From Syntrophaceae bacterium (GTDB taxonomy: Bacteria; Desulfobacterota; Syntrophia; Syntrophales; UBA5619): a stretch of DNA of 49,671 nt. The DNA is taken from contig PLLC01000057.1 in assembly GCA_003141195.1 (NCBI GenBank), positions 1 to 49,671 on the forward strand. Direction: 5' to 3'. The translations under genes were made by a program, and so were the position numbers. Position 1 is the stretch's first letter; the number at the start of each line of letters is the position of its first letter. This document shows, piece after piece, positions 13,219 to 27,361 of the stretch. Below the pieces are notes generated by a model. The model saw only the letters and a list, made by a program, of their open reading frames with translations, was not told where the DNA came from and made no database searches.

Positions 13219-13490
13219 GTCCTGGCCATCGGTGGAGCGGCCGTGGTGGCGAAGAAGGTGCAGTTTGTGGGCATCGCCACGGATGGCACCGGCGGTCTCT
13301 ACTATCCTTTGGGGACGCCCTGGCCCAGGTCATTTCCAGCAAGATTCCTGATGTGTCAGCGACTGCCCGGAGCGGCAACGCCTCGGTGGCCAATGTCAAC
13401 CTGGTTGCCCAGGATGAGGTGGAGACGGCCTTCATTCAGAACAACGTGCTGGATTCCGCCTATTTCAGAAAAGATCAGTGGCAGGGGAAT
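13219..13490 (+). pseudogene. Frameshifted fragment of a TAXI-family TRAP solute receptor
   Basis: The sequence encodes VLAIGGAAVVAKKVQFVGIA (late signal peptide and mature start) and then TGGLYYPLG in one frame. It continues after about 13313 in another frame with DALAQVISSKIPDVSATARS and VNLVAQDEVETAFIQNNVLD. Together these match the first quarter of a TAXI (TRAP-associated extracytoplasmic) receptor. A one-base loss in the G-run near 13311-13314 breaks the frame, the 5' end is cut within the signal peptide (TAA just upstream), and similarity ends near 13470-13490 where the attC-like repeat begins. It is non-functional. Confidence 0.75.
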
Positions 13491-13494
13491 GACC

Positions 13495-13553
13495 GCCGTC
13501 CCCGCGAGCAAACTCGTGTGTCCGTCAGTCGCTAATCCGCAGCGCCGTTATGC
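13495..13553 (+). other. Truncated attC-like cassette recombination site (copy 1)
   Basis: This is the first copy of a 55-bp repeat that recurs at 14208-14262 with 49 of 55 positions identical. It ends CAGCGCCGTTATGC, where GTTATGC (13547-13553) resembles an integron core site (GTTRRRY). Internally GCGAG...CTCGT can pair. The expected left half of an attC (complement of GTCGCTAAT) is not found in the adjoining TAXI fragment, so the site is a right half only. Function is inferred from pattern and from copy 2. Confidence 0.55.
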
Positions 13554-13611
13554 ATGATGACCTTATGAACAAAAAGTTACAATTATATTCCAAACATGAT
13601 AAGGTTAAACC

Positions 13612-13893
13612 ATGAAATACACCCAATGCTTTCTATTTGTAAGACAACGCTCTGACAGGAAAGGGATCAAAGAAGAATGGATACTCGAAACCATCAGTAA
13701 CCCTTTAAAAACTGTAAGATGATCCGACGGGCGAATAAAAAAGTGGAAATATATTGAGGAAGCGGGGAAATATCTGAGAGTCATTCTGTTGGAAGACGGG
13801 GAGACAGTCCATAACGCCTTTTCGACAGGAGCTATAAGGAGGAGTAACCATGAAAATCCGCTACTTTGCAGATACGGATACGGCACTCATTGA
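13612..13893 (+). pseudogene. DUF4258-like ORF interrupted by in-frame TGA
   Basis: The frame from ATG 13612 reads MKYTQCFLFVRQRSDRKGI..WILETI, hits TGA at 13720-13722, then continues SDGRIKKWKYIEEAGKYLRV and LLEDGETVHNAF. The two parts together resemble the small DUF4258 proteins often encoded directly upstream of a DUF2283 protein, possibly as a toxin-antitoxin-like pair. The TGA most simply arose from CGA by C-to-T change and truncates the product to 36 residues. The pseudogene's 3' end overlaps the start of the DUF2283 gene. The AT-rich composition differs from the chromosomal genes nearby. Confidence 0.6.
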
Positions 13894-14056
13894 GTTTTCA
13901 AATGAATCCATTCTGGAAACGAAAGAAATATCAGAAAGCCTCTATATCGATCTGGACCGCAAGGGCAATCTTGTAAGTATGACCATTGAGCACGCAAAAG
14001 AAAAGGCCAATATCTCAGAAGTGTCGTATTTGCAAATGGAACAAATCGTGGCATAA
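13850..14056 (+). CDS. DUF2283 family small protein
   Basis: The 68-residue protein (MKIRYFADTDTALIEFSNES, then LDRKGNLVSMTIEHAKEKA) matches the DUF2283 family of short proteins with a YDxxADxxYI-like start. Partners of DUF4258 are often thought to form toxin-antitoxin-type pairs, but function is unproven. The start has a strong AAGGAGGAGTAACC ribosome-binding site. Its TAA stop lies inside GCATAAC, the candidate left core of the attC-like site, a typical arrangement for integron cassette genes. The upstream partner carries a nonsense codon, so this gene may be an orphan. Confidence 0.75.
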   Translation: MKIRYFADTDTALIEFSNESILETKEISESLYIDLDRKGNLVSMTIEHAKEKANISEVSYLQMEQIVA

Positions 14057-14266
14057 CCAAACAATCCAGCGGATGGGCCCAAGACAGGGCCTTCCCCTGA
14101 TTTCCTCGATGGTCGGATGCTTCGCGCCGAGCCATCGGTGCTGCCGATTGCCGTCCGCTTTCTGGCCGGCGCTGCCGCGCTTGGCCATCAAGCGGCAGCA
14201 GCGGACAGCCGTCCCTGCGAGCAAGCTCGCGTGTACGTCAGCCGCTGATCCGCAGCGCCGTTGGGC
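14051..14266 (+). other. attC-like recombination site (copy 2), unusually long
   Basis: GCATAAC (14051-14057) is the exact complement of GTTATGC at the first site, as expected for the two ends of one cassette. CAGCGG (14067-14072) pairs with CCGCTG (14242-14247), and the site ends in GTTGGGC (14260-14266). Inside are nested hairpins: GTCCGCT...AGCGGAC with GCTGCCGC/GCGGCAGC, and CGATGG..CCATCG. A second, closer CAGCGG (14199-14204) also pairs with CCGCTG around CGT/ACG and GCGAG/CTCGC stems. At 216 bp it exceeds usual attC sizes and may be a fusion of two sites. Confidence 0.5.
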
Positions 14267-14284
14267 GGCAGGAATAGGGACAAG

Positions 14285-17200
14285 ATGAGCGACAAAGCGG
14301 TATTCACCAGGTACCTCAAAGAGCTTTTCGCCGTGGCCCTGCAAGGCGACGCGCGGGAGGAAAGCTTCTACCCGACGCTTGCCGAAATGCTGGCGGATAT
14401 AGCCAAGGCAACCGGGCGGGCGCATGTGCGCGTCACCACCCTTCCAAAACCCACCGATGCCGGCAACCCTGATTTTCGTCTGTGGAATGGCACGGACCGC
14501 ATCATCGGCTATGTCGAAGCCAAGAAACCGACGGAAGATCGACTGGACGTTATCGAGGAGTCCGAACAACTCACGCGCTATCGCTCCACGTTCCCCAACC
14601 TCATTCTGACCAACTTCCTTGAGTTCCGGCTGTACCGGAACGGCGAGCGCGTGGAGACGGTCCTTGCCGCCCGGCCCATGGTTCTCAACCGCCTGCGCAC
14701 GATGCCGCCGTTGGAAAAGCCGGACGAACTGCATGCCCTCCTTGACCGATTTCTCGGTTTCTCGCTGCCCAAGGCGTTCACGGCTGAATCTCTCGCCGTC
14801 GAACTGGCCAAACGCACTCGATTCCTGCGGGATGTCGTCGCTCAGCAACTTGAGCAGGAAAAGGACGCGCCGGGCATGCTTGCCGGGTTCTTTGAAGCCT
14901 TCCATACCTACCTCATCGGCACGCTGACACCGGAGGACTTCGCCGACCTCTTCGCCCAGACCATTACCTACGGCCTCTTTGCCGCCCGGACCCGGGCCGG
15001 GGACGGCTTCAGCCGCCGCACGGCCTACGACAACATCCCGCACACGATCGGTGTCCTCCGCCACCTGTTTCGTTTCATCTCGCTCGACGATCTACCCGAG
15101 CAACTCGCCTGGTGCGTGGACGACATCGCCGAAGTCCTGGCCGTGGCCGACGCGCCCGGCATCCTCGACCGCTACTACCACGAAGGCAAGGGAAGCGACC
15201 CCATCGTTCACTTTTACGAGACTTTCCTCGCGCAATACGACCCCGCCGAGCGCGAGCGCCGCGGCGTTTACTACACGCCCGAACCGGTGGTCGGCTACAT
15301 CGTCCGTTCGCTGCACAGCCTACTGAAGACCGAATTCGGCAAACGCGATGGATTGGCTTCCGACGGCGTAACACTTCTCGACCCGGCGGCGGGCACCATG
15401 ACCTTCATCGCCCGCGCCGCGCAGCAGGCCGTCGCCGAGTTCGAGGCCAAGTACGGCAGCGGCGGGCGCGAGGACTTCATCCGGCGGCACGTCCTCAAGA
15501 ACTTCTACGCCTTCGAGTTGATGATGGCCCCCTACGCCGTGGGCCACCTCAAAATGGGCTTTTTCCTCGAAGAACTCGGCCACCGTCTGACGGACGAGGA
15601 GCGTGTCCCCTTCTACCTCACCAACACCCTCGACAACGAGGAGTTGGAACAGAGCAACCTGCCGGGCTTTTCCGCCTTGGCCGAGGAATCCCGCCTCGCC
15701 GGAACCGTCAAGAAGCAAACCCCGATTCTCGTGATCCTCGGCAATCCGCCGTATTCGGGGCATTCGAGCAATCTAAGTGAAAAGATGTGTGAGATCCACA
15801 AAGGTCACAAATATGTCATAGGATGGAATCCAAAGGCGGGCGGTGGCGCAGAGGCCATTGATTGCATAGCCAAGCATGAAATAGGCGGCATTTTGCAGCC
15901 AACGTTCATAGGGCATCTGATAAGGGATTATTTCTTTGTGGACGAAAAGCCTCTGGGCGAGAAGAATCCGAAATGGCTCCAGGACGACTACGTGAAGTTC
16001 CTCCGCTTCGCCCAGTGGAAGATCGAGCAGGCCGGACGCGGGGTTGTCGGCATGATCACCAACCACGGCTACCTCGACAACCCGACGTTCCGGGGCATGC
16101 GCCAGAGCCTGATCCGTACCTTTGACGAGATTTACATCCTCGATCTGCACGGCAACTCGCTCAAGAAAGAGATCTGCCCTGATGGGAGCCCCGACAAGAA
16201 CGTTTTCGACATCCGGCAGGGCGTGGCCATAGCTTTTTTCATCAGGCGCGGCGGCAAAAGGAAGGCCGATGCGGTTGTCCGACATACCGATCTCTGGGGT
16301 TTGAGAGAGTCAAAGTATGGCTGGCTCGATGACCGCGACCTGAAGCAAACCGATTGGCAGGAGTTAAAGCCGACGTCGCCGTTCCATCTGTTCGTACCGC
16401 GCGACAACGCACTGGACGCCGGTTATCGCCGTTTTGTCGGCATCCCCGATTTGTTCCCGGTCAACAGCGTCGGCATCGTGACGGCGCGCGACAGACTGAC
16501 GATTCACTGGTCAAAAGAAGACATCTGGAAAACGGTAACCGTCTTCGCCGGTATGGATGCGGAAGTGGCGCGCCAAGGGTACAATCTCGGCAAAGACGCG
16601 CGAGACTGGAAGGTGTCGTTTGCTCAAAAAGACCTGCTGGATTCCGGCCCCTCGCGAGACAAGATCGCGCCTATTCTCTACCGGCCCTTCGACATCCGCC
16701 ACACCTACTACACCGGCCGATCGCGCGGGTTCATCTGCATGCCCCGTCCCGAGGTTATGCGCCACATGCTGGCGGGGGAGAATCTGGCATTGGTCACCTG
16801 TCGACAACTCGCCCAGGCTGGCTGGTCTCATGCCATGGTGAGTGATCAAATAACCGACGATTCCTTTGTGTCGAACCGCACGCGGGAACGTGGCTACCTG
16901 ATGCCCCTCTACCTCTACCCCACCGCTGACCGCGCGGACCTCTTCGCTCTTCACGAACCGTCGGAACGCTGTCCGAATCTGAACCCCAAAGTGGTCGCGG
17001 CGTTGGCTCAGACATACGGCAAGGAACCCTCGCCCGAGGAGATCTTTCACTACGTTTACGCCGTCCTGTATGCGCCCGCGTATCGTGAGAAATATGCCGA
17101 GTTACTGCGTATGGATTTCCCGCGCGTGCCGTTCACGGCGGACGCGAAGCTGTTCCAGAAACTCGCCGCCTTGGGCGCGCGGCTGACCGCCCTGCATCTG

Positions 17201-17596
17201 CTCAAATCCTCCGCCCTCGACCCGCCCGCCTGCCGGTTCGAGGGCGAGGGCGATAGCCGCATCGGCAAGGGAAGAAAGGCCGGGTTCCGCTACGAGCCGG
17301 GTGAACAGTGTGTGTACATCAACGCAACCCAGTATTTCGCGCCTGTGGCCGAAACCGTGTGGAGTTATCAGGTGGGCGGCTACCAGGTCTGCGAGAAGTG
17401 GCTGAAAGACCGCCAGGAACGCCGTCTTGAGCTGGACGACATCCGCACCTATTGCCGCATCGTCACGGCGCTCGGGCTGACCATCGAGATTCAGGAGAAG
17501 CTCGACGCCCTGTATCCTGGCGTTGAGAAGAGCGTCGTGACCATACCCGGACACATGTCGGAAGTGGAATCAGGAAGCCCAACAAATGTACTATGA
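14285..17596 (+). CDS. Single-chain Type IIG-like restriction-modification enzyme (N6-adenine methylase)
   Basis: The 1103-residue protein fuses three parts. Near residues 60-90, NPDFRLWNG...GYVEAKKP is a PD-(D/E)xK nuclease motif. The N6-adenine methyltransferase core has motif I LLDPAAGTMTF (about residue 365) and motif IV ILGNPPYSG (about 485). A C-terminal third with LYRPFDIRHTYYT, TRERGYLMPLYLYP and GYQVCEKWLKDR fits the specificity/DNA-recognition region of such enzymes. It would both cut and methylate DNA at a specific site. I chose ATG 14285 behind AGGAATAGGGAC. The gene begins 23 bp after a GTTGGGC core and its last codons contain the complementary GCCCAAC, so it looks like a very large integron cassette. 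Confidence 0.85.
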   Translation: MSDKAVFTRYLKELFAVALQGDAREESFYPTLAEMLADIAKATGRAHVRVTTLPKPTDAGNPDFRLWNGTDRIIGYVEAKKPTEDRLDVIEESEQLTRYRSTFPNLILTNFLEFRLYRNGERVETVLAARPMVLNRLRTMPPLEKPDELHALLDRFLGFSLPKAFTAESLAVELAKRTRFLRDVVAQQLEQEKDAPGMLAGFFEAFHTYLIGTLTPEDFADLFAQTITYGLFAARTRAGDGFSRRTAYDNIPHTIGVLRHLFRFISLDDLPEQLAWCVDDIAEVLAVADAPGILDRYYHEGKGSDPIVHFYETFLAQYDPAERERRGVYYTPEPVVGYIVRSLHSLLKTEFGKRDGLASDGVTLLDPAAGTMTFIARAAQQAVAEFEAKYGSGGREDFIRRHVLKNFYAFELMMAPYAVGHLKMGFFLEELGHRLTDEERVPFYLTNTLDNEELEQSNLPGFSALAEESRLAGTVKKQTPILVILGNPPYSGHSSNLSEKMCEIHKGHKYVIGWNPKAGGGAEAIDCIAKHEIGGILQPTFIGHLIRDYFFVDEKPLGEKNPKWLQDDYVKFLRFAQWKIEQAGRGVVGMITNHGYLDNPTFRGMRQSLIRTFDEIYILDLHGNSLKKEICPDGSPDKNVFDIRQGVAIAFFIRRGGKRKADAVVRHTDLWGLRESKYGWLDDRDLKQTDWQELKPTSPFHLFVPRDNALDAGYRRFVGIPDLFPVNSVGIVTARDRLTIHWSKEDIWKTVTVFAGMDAEVARQGYNLGKDARDWKVSFAQKDLLDSGPSRDKIAPILYRPFDIRHTYYTGRSRGFICMPRPEVMRHMLAGENLALVTCRQLAQAGWSHAMVSDQITDDSFVSNRTRERGYLMPLYLYPTADRADLFALHEPSERCPNLNPKVVAALAQTYGKEPSPEEIFHYVYAVLYAPAYREKYAELLRMDFPRVPFTADAKLFQKLAALGARLTALHLLKSSALDPPACRFEGEGDSRIGKGRKAGFRYEPGEQCVYINATQYFAPVAETVWSYQVGGYQVCEKWLKDRQERRLELDDIRTYCRIVTALGLTIEIQEKLDALYPGVEKSVVTIPGHMSEVESGSPTNVL
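17577..17583 (+). other. Candidate left core of a lost attC
   Basis: GCCCAAC fits RYYYAAC and is the exact complement of GTTGGGC at 14260-14266, the start of the unit carrying the restriction-modification gene. It lies within the last six codons of that gene. The rest of an attC is not recognisable downstream: 40 bp later the ribosome-binding site of the HD-GYP gene begins. Confidence 0.45.
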
Positions 17597-17625
17597 ACGA
17601 GAATACGTAATCTAAAGGAGGCATC

Positions 17626-18885
17626 ATGTATCCGAAAATATCGGTGAATCTCGGAAATCTCGTTCTCTCCCTCTCGGATGCCCTGGATCTGGCGTTTTAT
17701 TCGCTGGCCATGCACCAGCAGCGCACGGCTTTCATCGCCTGGGAGTTGGGAAAAAATGCAAAGTTGCCGGAAAAAAGGATTGAAAACGTTTTCATTGCCG
17801 GCTTGCTTCACGACATCGGAGCATTGTCGATCGAGGAAAAAAGATCTCTTCACGATAACGAAACCGCGGAGGTGGAACCGCACTGCATTCGAGGACAGCA
17901 TCTTTTCAAATCCAACCCGTGGCTTGCGTCATGCGCAGACCTGGTGCGATACCACCACCGGGATTGGGTTACGTATGAAGAGCCGCGAGACGCTCCCGAG
18001 GTATTCGACTCGCAACTTCTCTTTCTCGCGGACTACCTGGAACGTCAGATAGACCGAAAGACATATATCCTGCATCAGAACGAAGCACTCTGTGGCCAGA
18101 TGAAGGAACTCGCGGGCAAGCAGATCGACAGAAAGATCGTCGACCTGTTCCTTGAAGTATCCCAACGGGAAGAATTTTGGCTGGACCTGACGTCTCCCCG
18201 CCTATACTCATTGCTTCTACACAATGGTCCATTTCAGGCAATTGAGATCGACCTCAACAACATCGCGATCTTCGCCAAACTGCTCGGCATGATTGTCGAT
18301 TTCAAATCGCCCTTTACTGCTACTCATTCATCCGGCGTTGCCCAGTGTTCCATGCTCCTTGCCGAGATAGTCGGTATGTCGGAAACCGAGGTGAAGCTGA
18401 TGGAAGTAGCGGGGTTGCTCCACGATCTCGGCAAGCTGGTCGTCCCCAACTCGATCCTTGAAAAACCAGCGGGGCTGACGCATGAGGAGATGGCCGTGAT
18501 GAAACAACATACCTACCACACATTCTCCATCCTCAGCACCATCGGAGGACTTCAGATGATTGCCGAATGGGGCGCTTATCACCACGAGAGGCTGGACGGC
18601 AAGGGGTATCCTTTCAGGCGTAAGGCCCATGAAATGAATATCGGGGCGCGGATTATGGCCGTTTCCGATATATTTACAGCGCTGGCAGAGGATCGCCCGT
18701 ATCGCAAGGGCATGAAGACGGAGAACATAAAAAATATCCTTCAAGAGCAGGCCTCTCATGGCATACAAGACTCCCACATTGTGAAGCTTCTGCTGGAGAA
18801 CATTGAGGAGGTCCGCCAGGTTGTAACTGAAAGGCAAGAGCAGGCCCGGCATTACTATCAGACCGAGGTTGAAAAACCGGAATAA
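17626..18885 (+). CDS. HD/HD-GYP domain protein, probable cyclic di-GMP phosphodiesterase
   Basis: The 419-residue cytosolic protein has two HD regions. The first (about residues 25-130) has IAGLLHDIGALS and RYHHRDW. The second (about 210-400) is a full HD-GYP domain: HSSGVAQ, VAGLLHDLGKLVVPNSILEKP, KQHTYHTF, HHERLDGKGYP and AVSDIFTALAEDRPYRKG. HD-GYP proteins hydrolyse cyclic di-GMP at a metal centre bound by the HD residues and the GYP loop; all those residues are present. No sensory or receiver domain is fused. The ATG follows AAAGGAGGCATC. It lies directly after the cassette-like region and may mark the chromosomal boundary. Confidence 0.87.
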   Translation: MYPKISVNLGNLVLSLSDALDLAFYSLAMHQQRTAFIAWELGKNAKLPEKRIENVFIAGLLHDIGALSIEEKRSLHDNETAEVEPHCIRGQHLFKSNPWLASCADLVRYHHRDWVTYEEPRDAPEVFDSQLLFLADYLERQIDRKTYILHQNEALCGQMKELAGKQIDRKIVDLFLEVSQREEFWLDLTSPRLYSLLLHNGPFQAIEIDLNNIAIFAKLLGMIVDFKSPFTATHSSGVAQCSMLLAEIVGMSETEVKLMEVAGLLHDLGKLVVPNSILEKPAGLTHEEMAVMKQHTYHTFSILSTIGGLQMIAEWGAYHHERLDGKGYPFRRKAHEMNIGARIMAVSDIFTALAEDRPYRKGMKTENIKNILQEQASHGIQDSHIVKLLLENIEEVRQVVTERQEQARHYYQTEVEKPE

Positions 18886-18903
18886 TTCCTTTACGGGAGG
18901 AGA

Positions 18904-24303: not shown

Positions 24304-26031
24304 TTATATGGGGACAGATTTAAAATCTGTCCCCGGTTGCGGTGGCCCAAAATCTGTCCCCGGTGGCCCGGACAGTGCCTTCCGGTATTCGCTGATGAGC
24401 AGTGTTTTTTCGGTGCCGTGGTCGATGAAGTCCCACGGCAGGATCTCCTCGGTTTCCTTCCGGCGGTAGACGTAGAAGTCGGGATTCACATTTACCTCCC
24501 GGAAGGCATTTGCCCAGTTGCCTCCACGCCGATGGACCGCCAGCAGGATCCTGCCCACTGTTCGGTCGCCCAGCGAGAGCAGGGCCTGGATGTAATTCCA
24601 CTTCGGGATATCGTGGATGACTCGGACCGCCTTCTCGCCGCGCAGGGCGTCGGTGATCCGCCGGATCCTCCGCTTGACGACCGCCGTATCCTCCAGTGGG
24701 TGCCATTGGAACGGGGTGCCGGGTTTGGGGATGAACTGGTTGATGCTGAGCGTCAGACGCCGGAACCCTTTCCTGCCTTTCGAATACCGGCGTGCGTGGT
24801 GCTCCATCCCCTTGACCAGCCGGACGATGGCATCCATATCCTCGTCCATTTCCGTCGGGAGACCCACCATGAAGTAAAGCCTCACTTGAACCATATCACA
24901 TTCCATCAGTTTTTCCACTGCAGAAAAAATCTCCCCTTCGGTGATCCCCTTGCGGATCACATCCCGGAGGCGCTGGGAGCCGGCCTCGGGGGCGAGGGAG
25001 ACGGTCTCCACGCCGGTTTCCTTCAGGAGCGCCGCCATGGGTCCGCTCAGGCGGTCCAGGCGGAGAGATCCGACGGCCACGGATCCGCCCGCGTCCAGAA
25101 TGGAGCGGCACAGGGGGATGAGGGCGGGGTGGTCGGAGACGGCCGTGCCCAGAAGGCCGATCGTTTTTTTCTTTTCGAGTCCCCGCCGGAAGGAGGGCGC
25201 CAGCGCCGCGGCGCTCCGGAAACGTGCCGGCCGGCAGACGAAACCGGCGGCGCAGAAACGACAGCCCCGCCGGCAGCCTCGGCTGACTTCTGTGAGGAAC
25301 ATGCCGCCGAACTCGGTGTCCGCGGTGGTGATGCCCTGTTCGGTCGGAAAGGCGTCGAGGTCGGCGGCCCACGGCCGGACGATCCGCCGGGGAAAGGCGG
25401 GATCGACCGGTTCCCGGGCAGTGATGCGCCCGTCCTCCCCGGTGGTTACCTGGTAAAACCGGGGGACGTAGGCCCCTGCGATCTCCTTCTGGATCCGGGC
25501 GAGGAACGCCTCTCGGGGGAGATCCCGCCGGAGGGAGGCCGCCAGATCGAGAAATCCGGGGAGAACCGCTTCGCCTTCGCCGAGCAGGAAGAGATCGAAG
25601 AAGTCGGCGAGGGGCTCGGGGTTCAGCGTGGCGGCGATGCCGCCCGCGATGACGAGGGGATCCTTCTTCCCCCGTGCCGCGGCCTCGATGGGGATTCCCG
25701 CCATCTCGAGCATCCGGAGGATCTGGGGATAATCGTTCTCAAAGGAGAGCGAGAAGGCGATGATATCGAAGTCGGCAAGGGGCCGCTGCGACTCGATGCT
25801 GATCAGGGGGTCGTCGTCGCCGGGTTCGGGGAAGAATACCCGTTCGCACAGGCAGGCGGGATGGCGGTTGATCAGGGCGTAGACGGCCTGAAAGCCGAGA
25901 TTGGACATCCCCGTCCGGTAAAGGTTCGGATAAGCGAGGCAGACCGTCAGGGATTCTCCCCAGACCTTCCGGGACCAGCCCTCCTCACCGGCGAGACGAT
26001 CCAGGCATCTCTTTTTTTGCTTCCAGGACAT
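24304..26031 (-). CDS. Radical SAM protein with B12-binding-like N-terminus (TIGR03960-like)
   Basis: The 575-residue protein has an N-terminal cobalamin-binding-like region (LTVCLAYPNLYRTGMSNLGFQAVY; ..LIAGGIAATLNPEPLADFFD) and a radical SAM domain with the [4Fe-4S] motif CRRGCRFC at about residue 255. YFMVGLPTEMDEDM, NQFIPKPGTPFQWHPLED and a C-terminal WDFIDHG region follow. This is the arrangement of a widespread uncharacterised family often fused to or next to a DUF2344 protein, absent here. The last about 20 residues (GTDFGPPQPGTDFKSVPI) are encoded by REP-like repeats and are unlikely to be ancestral. No strong ribosome-binding site is visible at the start. Confidence 0.87.
   Translation of the reverse strand: MSWKQKKRCLDRLAGEEGWSRKVWGESLTVCLAYPNLYRTGMSNLGFQAVYALINRHPACLCERVFFPEPGDDDPLISIESQRPLADFDIIAFSLSFENDYPQILRMLEMAGIPIEAAARGKKDPLVIAGGIAATLNPEPLADFFDLFLLGEGEAVLPGFLDLAASLRRDLPREAFLARIQKEIAGAYVPRFYQVTTGEDGRITAREPVDPAFPRRIVRPWAADLDAFPTEQGITTADTEFGGMFLTEVSRGCRRGCRFCAAGFVCRPARFRSAAALAPSFRRGLEKKKTIGLLGTAVSDHPALIPLCRSILDAGGSVAVGSLRLDRLSGPMAALLKETGVETVSLAPEAGSQRLRDVIRKGITEGEIFSAVEKLMECDMVQVRLYFMVGLPTEMDEDMDAIVRLVKGMEHHARRYSKGRKGFRRLTLSINQFIPKPGTPFQWHPLEDTAVVKRRIRRITDALRGEKAVRVIHDIPKWNYIQALLSLGDRTVGRILLAVHRRGGNWANAFREVNVNPDFYVYRRKETEEILPWDFIDHGTEKTLLISEYRKALSGPPGTDFGPPQPGTDFKSVPI
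24310..24361. repeat. REP-like repeats (GGGGACAGATTT palindrome plus half copy)
   Basis: GGGGACAGATTT and AAATCTGTCCCC form a near-perfect palindrome (24310-24334). A further half copy AAAATCTGTCCCC lies at 24349-24361, followed by a repeated CGGTGGCCC. The repeat is inside the 3' end of the radical SAM coding frame and just before the UPF0182 gene, where it may also form an intercistronic hairpin. Confidence 0.7.
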
Positions 26032-26215: not shown

Positions 26216-27361
26216 CTAATCCGCCTGCCGCCGGAGGAAAGTGGGGATCTCCAGATCCGGATTTTCCTCGTCTTCACCCGTTTTGGTCTTGACCGCCACG
26301 GCGTCGGCGGTTTTTTCATTCCGGATGAAGGTCGGAACGGCTATGTTGCCCCCCCGCCGGAAGTCTCCGAGCGATGCGACGTTTGCCTTGGCGGCCGACT
26401 CGGTGCTTTCAAAGCCGGTGGCGATTACGGTAATCCGGATCTCATCGCCCATCGATTCATCGACGACCGTGCCGAAGATGATGTTCGCATCCTCGTGCGC
26501 CTCCGCCTGGATCATCGAGGAGGCCTCGTTGATCTCGTGGAGGGTCATGTTCGGACCGCCGGTGATGTTCAACAGGACGCCGCGGGCGCCCTGGATGGCA
26601 TTATCTTCGAGGAGCGGCGAGGAGATCGCCTTCTGCGCCGCCTCCACCGCCCGGTTCTCGCCGCCGGCCGTTCCGGTTCCCATGAGGGCCAGCCCCATCT
26701 GCGACATGATTGTCTTCACGTCGGCGAAGTCGAGATTGATCAGTCCCGGAACCATGATCAGGTCAGAGATTCCTTTGACGGCGTGGTAGAGGATGTCGTC
26801 GGCCTTCCGGAAGGCATCGATGAGGGAGATATCCCGTCCCCCGAGACTCAGAAGTCGCTGATTGGGAACGATGATCAGGGTGTCCACCATCTTTCGCAGT
26901 TCGGCGATCCCCACCTCCGCCTGTCCGTTCCGCTTTTTCCCCTCAAACTGGAAGGGTTTTGTCACGACCGCCACGGTCAGGGCGCCAATTTCTCTGGCGA
27001 TTTCCGCCACGATCGGTGCGCCCCCGGTTCCCGTGCCTCCGCCGAGGCCCGCGGTGATGAAGACCATATCGGATCCCTCGATGTGTTCGCGCAACGTCTC
27101 CCGGGTTTCGAGGGCTGCCTGCCGGCCGATGTCGGGGTCCGAACCGGCGCCCAGCCCTTTGGTGGTTTCGGCGCCCAACTGAATCTTGACTGGTGAGGCG
27201 GATGCCTTCAGCGCCTGCGCATCGGTGTTGGCCGCGATGAAATCGACCCCCCGCAGGTTATAGGAGATCATCGTGTTCACCGCATTTCCGCCCGCGCCGC
27301 CGATGCCGATCACCGTGATCGTTGCCGTGCTCACCAGACCCTTATCCGACAATTCGAACAT
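26216..27361 (-). CDS. ftsZ: Cell division protein FtsZ
   Basis: The 381-residue tubulin homologue polymerises with GTP to form the division ring. Visible are [14 protein letters not shown] near the N-terminus, the tubulin signature [13 protein letters not shown] (about residue 105), [11 protein letters not shown], and the C-terminal peptide IPTFLRRQ that binds FtsA and other partners, after a linker of about 50 residues. Length is normal. It is the last gene of the dcw cluster, 14 bp after ftsA. Confidence 0.97.

Follow-up and report, generated by a model that had tools for sequence, protein, structure and literature searches.

Restriction-modification genes are already known from integron cassettes (PMC9892861, PMC8618304, PMC4176335). 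A review (PMC12409362) describes integron defence genes, those of type II and type IV systems included, as reduced in size, and attributes this to a limit on the size of cassettes. Median coding sequences are given as 362 bp for sedentary and 575 bp for mobile integrons in PMC5371416, where in one arrangement excision (5.25e-5) was still seen for cassettes roughly 3,000 bp long. On the side of the enzymes, DrdV is a single chain in which slow methylation is set against rapid cleavage by multi-site assembly (PMC10201449), and Type ISP enzymes carry a helicase-like ATPase as well (PMC4666363). From slow methylation and rapid cleavage of the DrdV type it would follow that a single gene is enough for such an enzyme to enter a new host, and Type IIG enzymes would suit transport by cassette, since a chain that protects its own host does not depend on a second gene.

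The gene described here lies in a window of 49,671 bp, which is the whole of one contig (C96) in a draft genome of 3.27 Mb and 108 contigs. It encodes a predicted DrdV-like Type IIG nuclease-methyltransferase; the gene very probably moved as one unusually large integron cassette, about 3.3 kb long, and is now frozen in place. Like the known restriction-modification cassettes it would have moved with its attC as one unit; the difference is that here one full-length chain of 1103 amino acids is carried. No full-length Type IIG cassette was found in the literature searched, which includes a section of PMC12259885 and covers the 2025 work of Darracq, Kieffer, and Getz through a review and reference lists. 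In four genomes a gene of 3.3 kb has a complete attC at its end. This bears on the supposed cassette size limit, which becomes directly testable as complete cassettes of about 3.3 kb exist, and even a one-gene defence system of this size appears able to travel by the integron route.

The encoded enzyme and its recognition region

The PADLOC model REase_MTase_IIG matches nearly the full length of the protein (5.5e-259), and Pfam recognises Type_ISP_C (4.6e-89) and N6_Mtase, while NCBIfam holds no family for it. A motif alignment was made of the window protein and 39 homologues, drawn from 66 full-length open rows plus the window. Invariant in all 40 sequences are P62, D63, E78, A79, and K80, which we take to be the nuclease motif, and D366, P367, G370, F374, and N487-P488-P489-Y490, presumably the methyltransferase motifs. 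In a Foldseek search with the AlphaFold2 model (mean pLDDT 84), DrdV ranked first (E 1.7e-41) and the Type ISP enzymes LlaBIII and LlaGI came next. With DrdV (PDB 7lo5/7lvv; phmmer 2.2e-53) the protein shares an N-terminal nuclease, a methyltransferase, and a C-terminal recognition domain in a single chain, although the identity in the structural alignment is about 21–23%. With LlaBIII and LlaGI it shares the fold and the C-terminal specificity domain, but it has 1103 instead of 1578 amino acids and no helicase family was matched in the Pfam scan. Membership in Type ISP was therefore rejected, as no SF2 helicase-like ATPase accompanies the two Pfam domains. As expected of a Type IIG enzyme, HMM, motifs, and fold place a nuclease, a methyltransferase, and a recognition domain on the same chain, and the Pfam scan shows no helicase or translocase domain. 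HMM, motifs, and fold also support the original prediction of a single-chain nuclease with an N6-adenine-type methylase. The protein would presumably methylate an adenine in its target and cut unmethylated DNA. A second Type IIG-like enzyme with a frame of 1062 amino acids and 42% identity is encoded on another contig of the same genome (G000:C4:19444-22575), and similar ones occur in G005 and G010.

The most informative counterpart, L164 (G216:C257), comes from the same phylum as the window but from another family. Its DNA is 93% identical to the window over 14272-15759 and 84% over 16904-17585, and its protein is 90–97% identical over residues 1–476 and 80–93% over residues 883–1062. Over residues 707–824 L164 reaches 34–45% identity to the window protein versus 65–79% to that of another homologue, L084, and over the same residues the window protein is 71–82% identical to that of L018. 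In a whole-protein tree of 68 rows, from which partial or frameshifted rows were left out, L164 groups with L084 (SH-aLRT 100). The L164 enzyme is a mosaic with a different recognition region, and the simplest reading of the alignments is that this region was exchanged between related cassette-borne genes. A tentative extension, to which we give rather less than even weight, is that integrons spread full-length Type IIG cassettes across phyla and that recognition regions are swapped while nuclease, methylase, and attC edge are kept. If true, this would be a mobile restriction system which changes its target by recombination within the cassette.

Cassette boundaries in the window and on related contigs

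The features of the locus are collected in Table 1. The reading frame is open and yields 1103 amino acids from an ATG, or 1111 from an upstream TTG. The ATG lies 18 bp 3' of the core GTTGGGC, which conforms to GTTRRRY, and near its other end the frame contains GCCCAAC (17577-17583), a 7/7 complement of that core. In both cassettes of the window R'' and the cassette's own left R' are complementary at 7/7 positions. In the whole window GTTGGGC occurs twice and GCCCAAC three times; searches of the whole window with Rfam and for tRNAs gave no match.

Table 1. Coordinates of the restriction-modification cassette and its surroundings in the window
Feature	Position	Strand	Basis
Right half of older attC, ends in core GTTATGC (13547-13553)	13491..13553	+	aligns to right half of 14051-14266 and to G009/G013 attC
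Cassette 1, 713 bp	13548..14260	+	7/7 core pair GTTATGC 13547 / GCATAAC 14051
DUF2283 gene of cassette 1	13850..14056	+	Pfam PF10049, 2.6e-14
Complete attC of cassette 1, 216 bp, R'' GCATAAC to R' GTTGGGC	14051..14266	+	site family twice in G009:C23, twice in G013:C61
Core GTTGGGC, left edge of restriction-modification cassette	14260..14266	+	L018/L084 blastn homology starts at 14256; G011 at 14261
Type IIG nuclease-methyltransferase (predicted), 1103 aa	14285..17596	+	PADLOC REase_MTase_IIG, Pfam Type_ISP_C + N6_Mtase, DrdV fold match
R'' core GCCCAAC + 2 bp, remnant of the cassette's own attC	17577..17585	+	identical in L164, which has a complete 59-bp attC
Junction to non-cassette DNA	17586..17625	+	G013:C82 has the same junction
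HDOD/HD-domain neighbour, outside the cassette	17626..18885	+	Pfam HD_5 and HDOD; conserved in G013 and G006

A complete attC 3' of the restriction-modification gene is absent from the window, where only R'' and about 2 bp are found. L164 has the same right-edge letters, GGAAGCCCAACAA, and then a complete 59-bp attC ending in GTTGGGC, and the two diverge after 17585. As L164 continues into the full site at the shared edge, the window must have lost its attC about 2 bp past the core, and because the right site consists of so little, the last codons of the reading frame lie beyond the cassette. The enzyme had originally been placed exactly between complementary cores; the perfect core pair stands, but the site breaks off on the right, and the window copy is a former, stranded cassette and not an intact one. 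L164 in turn is without the left core, its homology to the window starting at 14272, and its attC falls below the arm-energy threshold used in the scans and was recognised by the perfect core pair, the shared edge, and reading.

Parts of the locus recur in relatives of the host. A genome of the same family (G013:C82) has the same broken junction followed by the HD-domain gene, with 90% identity over window positions 16895-18891, on a contig which ends inside the enzyme gene. In a genome of the same genus (G006) a toxin-antitoxin-like pair sits before the HD gene, together with an apparent short remnant of the 3' end of the enzyme gene, both read by eye. Another member of the family (G011) keeps the first 670 bp from the core (14261) as a truncated, broken gene behind another gene that is followed by GCCCAAC. 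The junction in the window and the DNA downstream of L018 have 11 bp in common, CAAATGTACTA; this match was dropped, as it may be due to chance and supports nothing.

Homologues flanked by attC had been called for in the original prediction, and a complete site at the end of the gene was found in four genomes, those of L164, L018, L084, and L036; like all comparisons here this rests largely on MAG contigs. L018 and L084 begin at GTTGGGC and end in GCCCAAC with a complete 59-bp attC, and in blastn their homology to the window starts at 14256, beside the left core. L018 is labelled Proteobacteria, and an identical sequence, G283, belongs to the phylum of the window; L084 comes from another, small phylum (44 genomes). 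The stop codon is located about 43 bp past the start of R'' in L018, L084, and L164. In L036, from the Anaerolineae (Chloroflexota), GTTAGAT precedes the start codon, and the stop codon is followed by a 71-bp attC, GCCTAAC...GTTAGGC. For each of the four sites the fold of the bottom strand is more stable than that of the top strand. L018 adjoins BrnT, VapB, PIN, and Phd/YefM genes, and toxin-antitoxin genes are frequent neighbours in cassette arrays. The 3.3-kb gene is of ordinary length for its family: the window protein and those of the four copies with an attC have 1050–1121 amino acids, and the family median is 1048 (67 ORFs).

Some further observations were made on these contigs. Upstream of the L036 enzyme (L036:1690-2633) lie genes for a ThsB-type TIR protein and an 8xMP membrane protein, possibly a further defence unit. 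The next gene past the L084 attC (L084:6233-8638) starts 17 bp after the R' core and encodes 801 amino acids with pentapeptide repeats and a part that looks NTPase-like by eye; this gene is not followed by a visible attC. The array in L018:1-9330 contains several copies of a palindromic stretch, GTTCGGTCGCGCTGCGCGCGCCCGAAC, close to its attC positions, which may be a small repeat that inserts at core sites.

Prevalence, mobility, and selection

Homologue loci were taken as the best 80 of 351 relatives and scanned with a strict attC rule (RYYYAAC to GTTNRRN, 50–160 bp, arms at or below -12 kcal/mol, at least 5/7 core pairs), which excludes the G216 site for its arm energy. The 80 loci, 640,930 bp in total, gave five sites, of which three lie no more than 60 bp from the stop codon of the enzyme (binomial 2.6e-5). 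Counted by gene ends, after removal of seven loci without a stop codon or 60 bp past it, this amounts to 3 of 73 homologue ends versus 0 of 309 ends of other ORFs of at least 150 amino acids in the same loci (Fisher p 0.0067). The 43 ends counted as "further" include the repeats L144 (=L018) and L180 (=L036) and may hold more than one locus per genome. GTTRRRY was found 15–35 nt 5' of the start in 7 of 72 loci (from the same 80) versus 9 of 576 control windows (p 0.0008). Cassette carriage is thus real, yet a minority state. Homologues at fixed sites, with no attC and no conserved GCCCAAC, had been named beforehand as the pattern that would speak against carriage; the close relatives contradict this pattern, which fits most of the distant homologues, 70 of the 73 ends among the best 80 of 351 relatives having no strict-rule site.

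Relatives were present in 38 of 400 Chloroflexota genomes, and among the ends examined there (30 loci fetched) an attC was found only at the L036 gene itself. In the 44 genomes of the phylum of L084 only its own gene and one relative of 42% identity were obtained. No close cassette copy was detected in viral contigs (three relatives, 32–38%), phage records (two distant Listeria matches), or plasmids (303 records, all below 60% identity).

In the host genome the closest match to an integron integrase is an incomplete gene on contig C2 (L001:1461-3120 = G000:C2), which lacks its middle part, from position 124 to position 293 of a model of 315 positions. The window contig has no match to TIGR02249, and no functional intI stands beside the array as it would in a complete integron. 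The window resembles a CALIN in having attC sites without a nearby integrase, but differs in that it comprises one complete attC and two partial sites only. The C2 locus is a dead integron in the same genome, with two attC-like sites downstream, at about 25,730-25,800 (by eye) and at 27,087-27,142 (by a scan in which ten shuffles yielded 0–4 sites each); a PIN-like gene, also recognised by eye, lies between the integrase gene and attC-like sites. As its own attC is mostly lost and the only clear integrase gene found is internally deleted, the window copy is stranded. An integrase above the family cut-off was found in none of the six genomes of L018, L084, L075, L019, L031, and L091, in neither of the two of L036 and G216, and in three of eight other relatives tested. 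In the genome of L018 (G061), several short ORFs of about 65–102 amino acids on multiple contigs have matches to the integrase model that are confined to its final 50 positions.

On this basis the cassette would start with TTGGGC, after the G of 14260, and would have ended in the attC beginning with GCCCAAC at 17577. An integron integrase probably put it behind the attC of the DUF2283 cassette; the rest of its own attC would have been lost later, where it met the HD-domain gene, and the integrase gene would have suffered an internal deletion, which leaves the copy frozen. That restriction-modification can move as a single cassette, as originally proposed, is consequently supported by the attC-bearing relatives for the lineage and not for this copy.

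A different history, in which homologous recombination or other elements were the main means of transfer between genomes, the gene entered integron arrays only now and then, and the cassette form is a side branch, we consider somewhat unlikely. It would explain that the five cassette-associated rows of the tree stand among non-cassette relatives and need at least three label changes, and that the gene and its HD neighbour are common to G013 and the window. However, leaders without an attC still carry GTTGGGC (L031, L051) or TGGGC (L075, L091, L029, L032), which suggests cassette ancestry followed by decay. The chance that the protein has degenerated into an inactive relic, retained by accident, appears smaller again: the decayed array, the deleted integrase, the truncated G011 copy, and the lack of any sigma-70-like promoter at 13400-17800 (0 found; shuffles mean 1.9) would agree with it, but the frame is full-length and its motifs are invariant, and dN/dS versus L164 is 0.138 over the first 490 codons. 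For the window copy dN/dS is 0.255 versus L164, 0.168 versus L018, 0.156 versus L084, and 0.154 versus L036, so purifying selection has maintained a functional enzyme in the longer run. An ordinary chromosomal restriction-modification gene with chance 7-mers beside an unrelated attC is highly improbable: the many homologue ends without a strict site and the mere core plus 2 bp on the right of the window are what it would lead one to expect, but complete sites stand at the same place in four genomes, homology edges fall at the core, control ORF ends have none, and L164 in particular joins the right edge of the window to a full site. The reading as a formerly mobile, now stranded cassette is therefore preferred.

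The neighbouring DUF2283 cassette and older array traces

The 216-bp attC which closes the DUF2283 cassette belongs to a family of sites found in relatives, with 88–91% identity in long alignments to two sites in a genome of the same genus (G009:C23) and an 86% alignment to G013:C61. Its 3' end pattern occurs twice in its own genome without mismatch, both times in the window, and with at most one mismatch in 11 of 61 genomes (relatives and own), where not all matches were attC-like when read. The older attC at 13491-13553 has its left half missing. Between this site and the DUF2283 gene, at 13608-13850, lies a reading frame with an internal TGA, presumably DUF4258-like. The stretch at 13220-13486 resembles, by eye, part of a binding protein of a TAXI-type TRAP transporter and is joined directly to the half attC.
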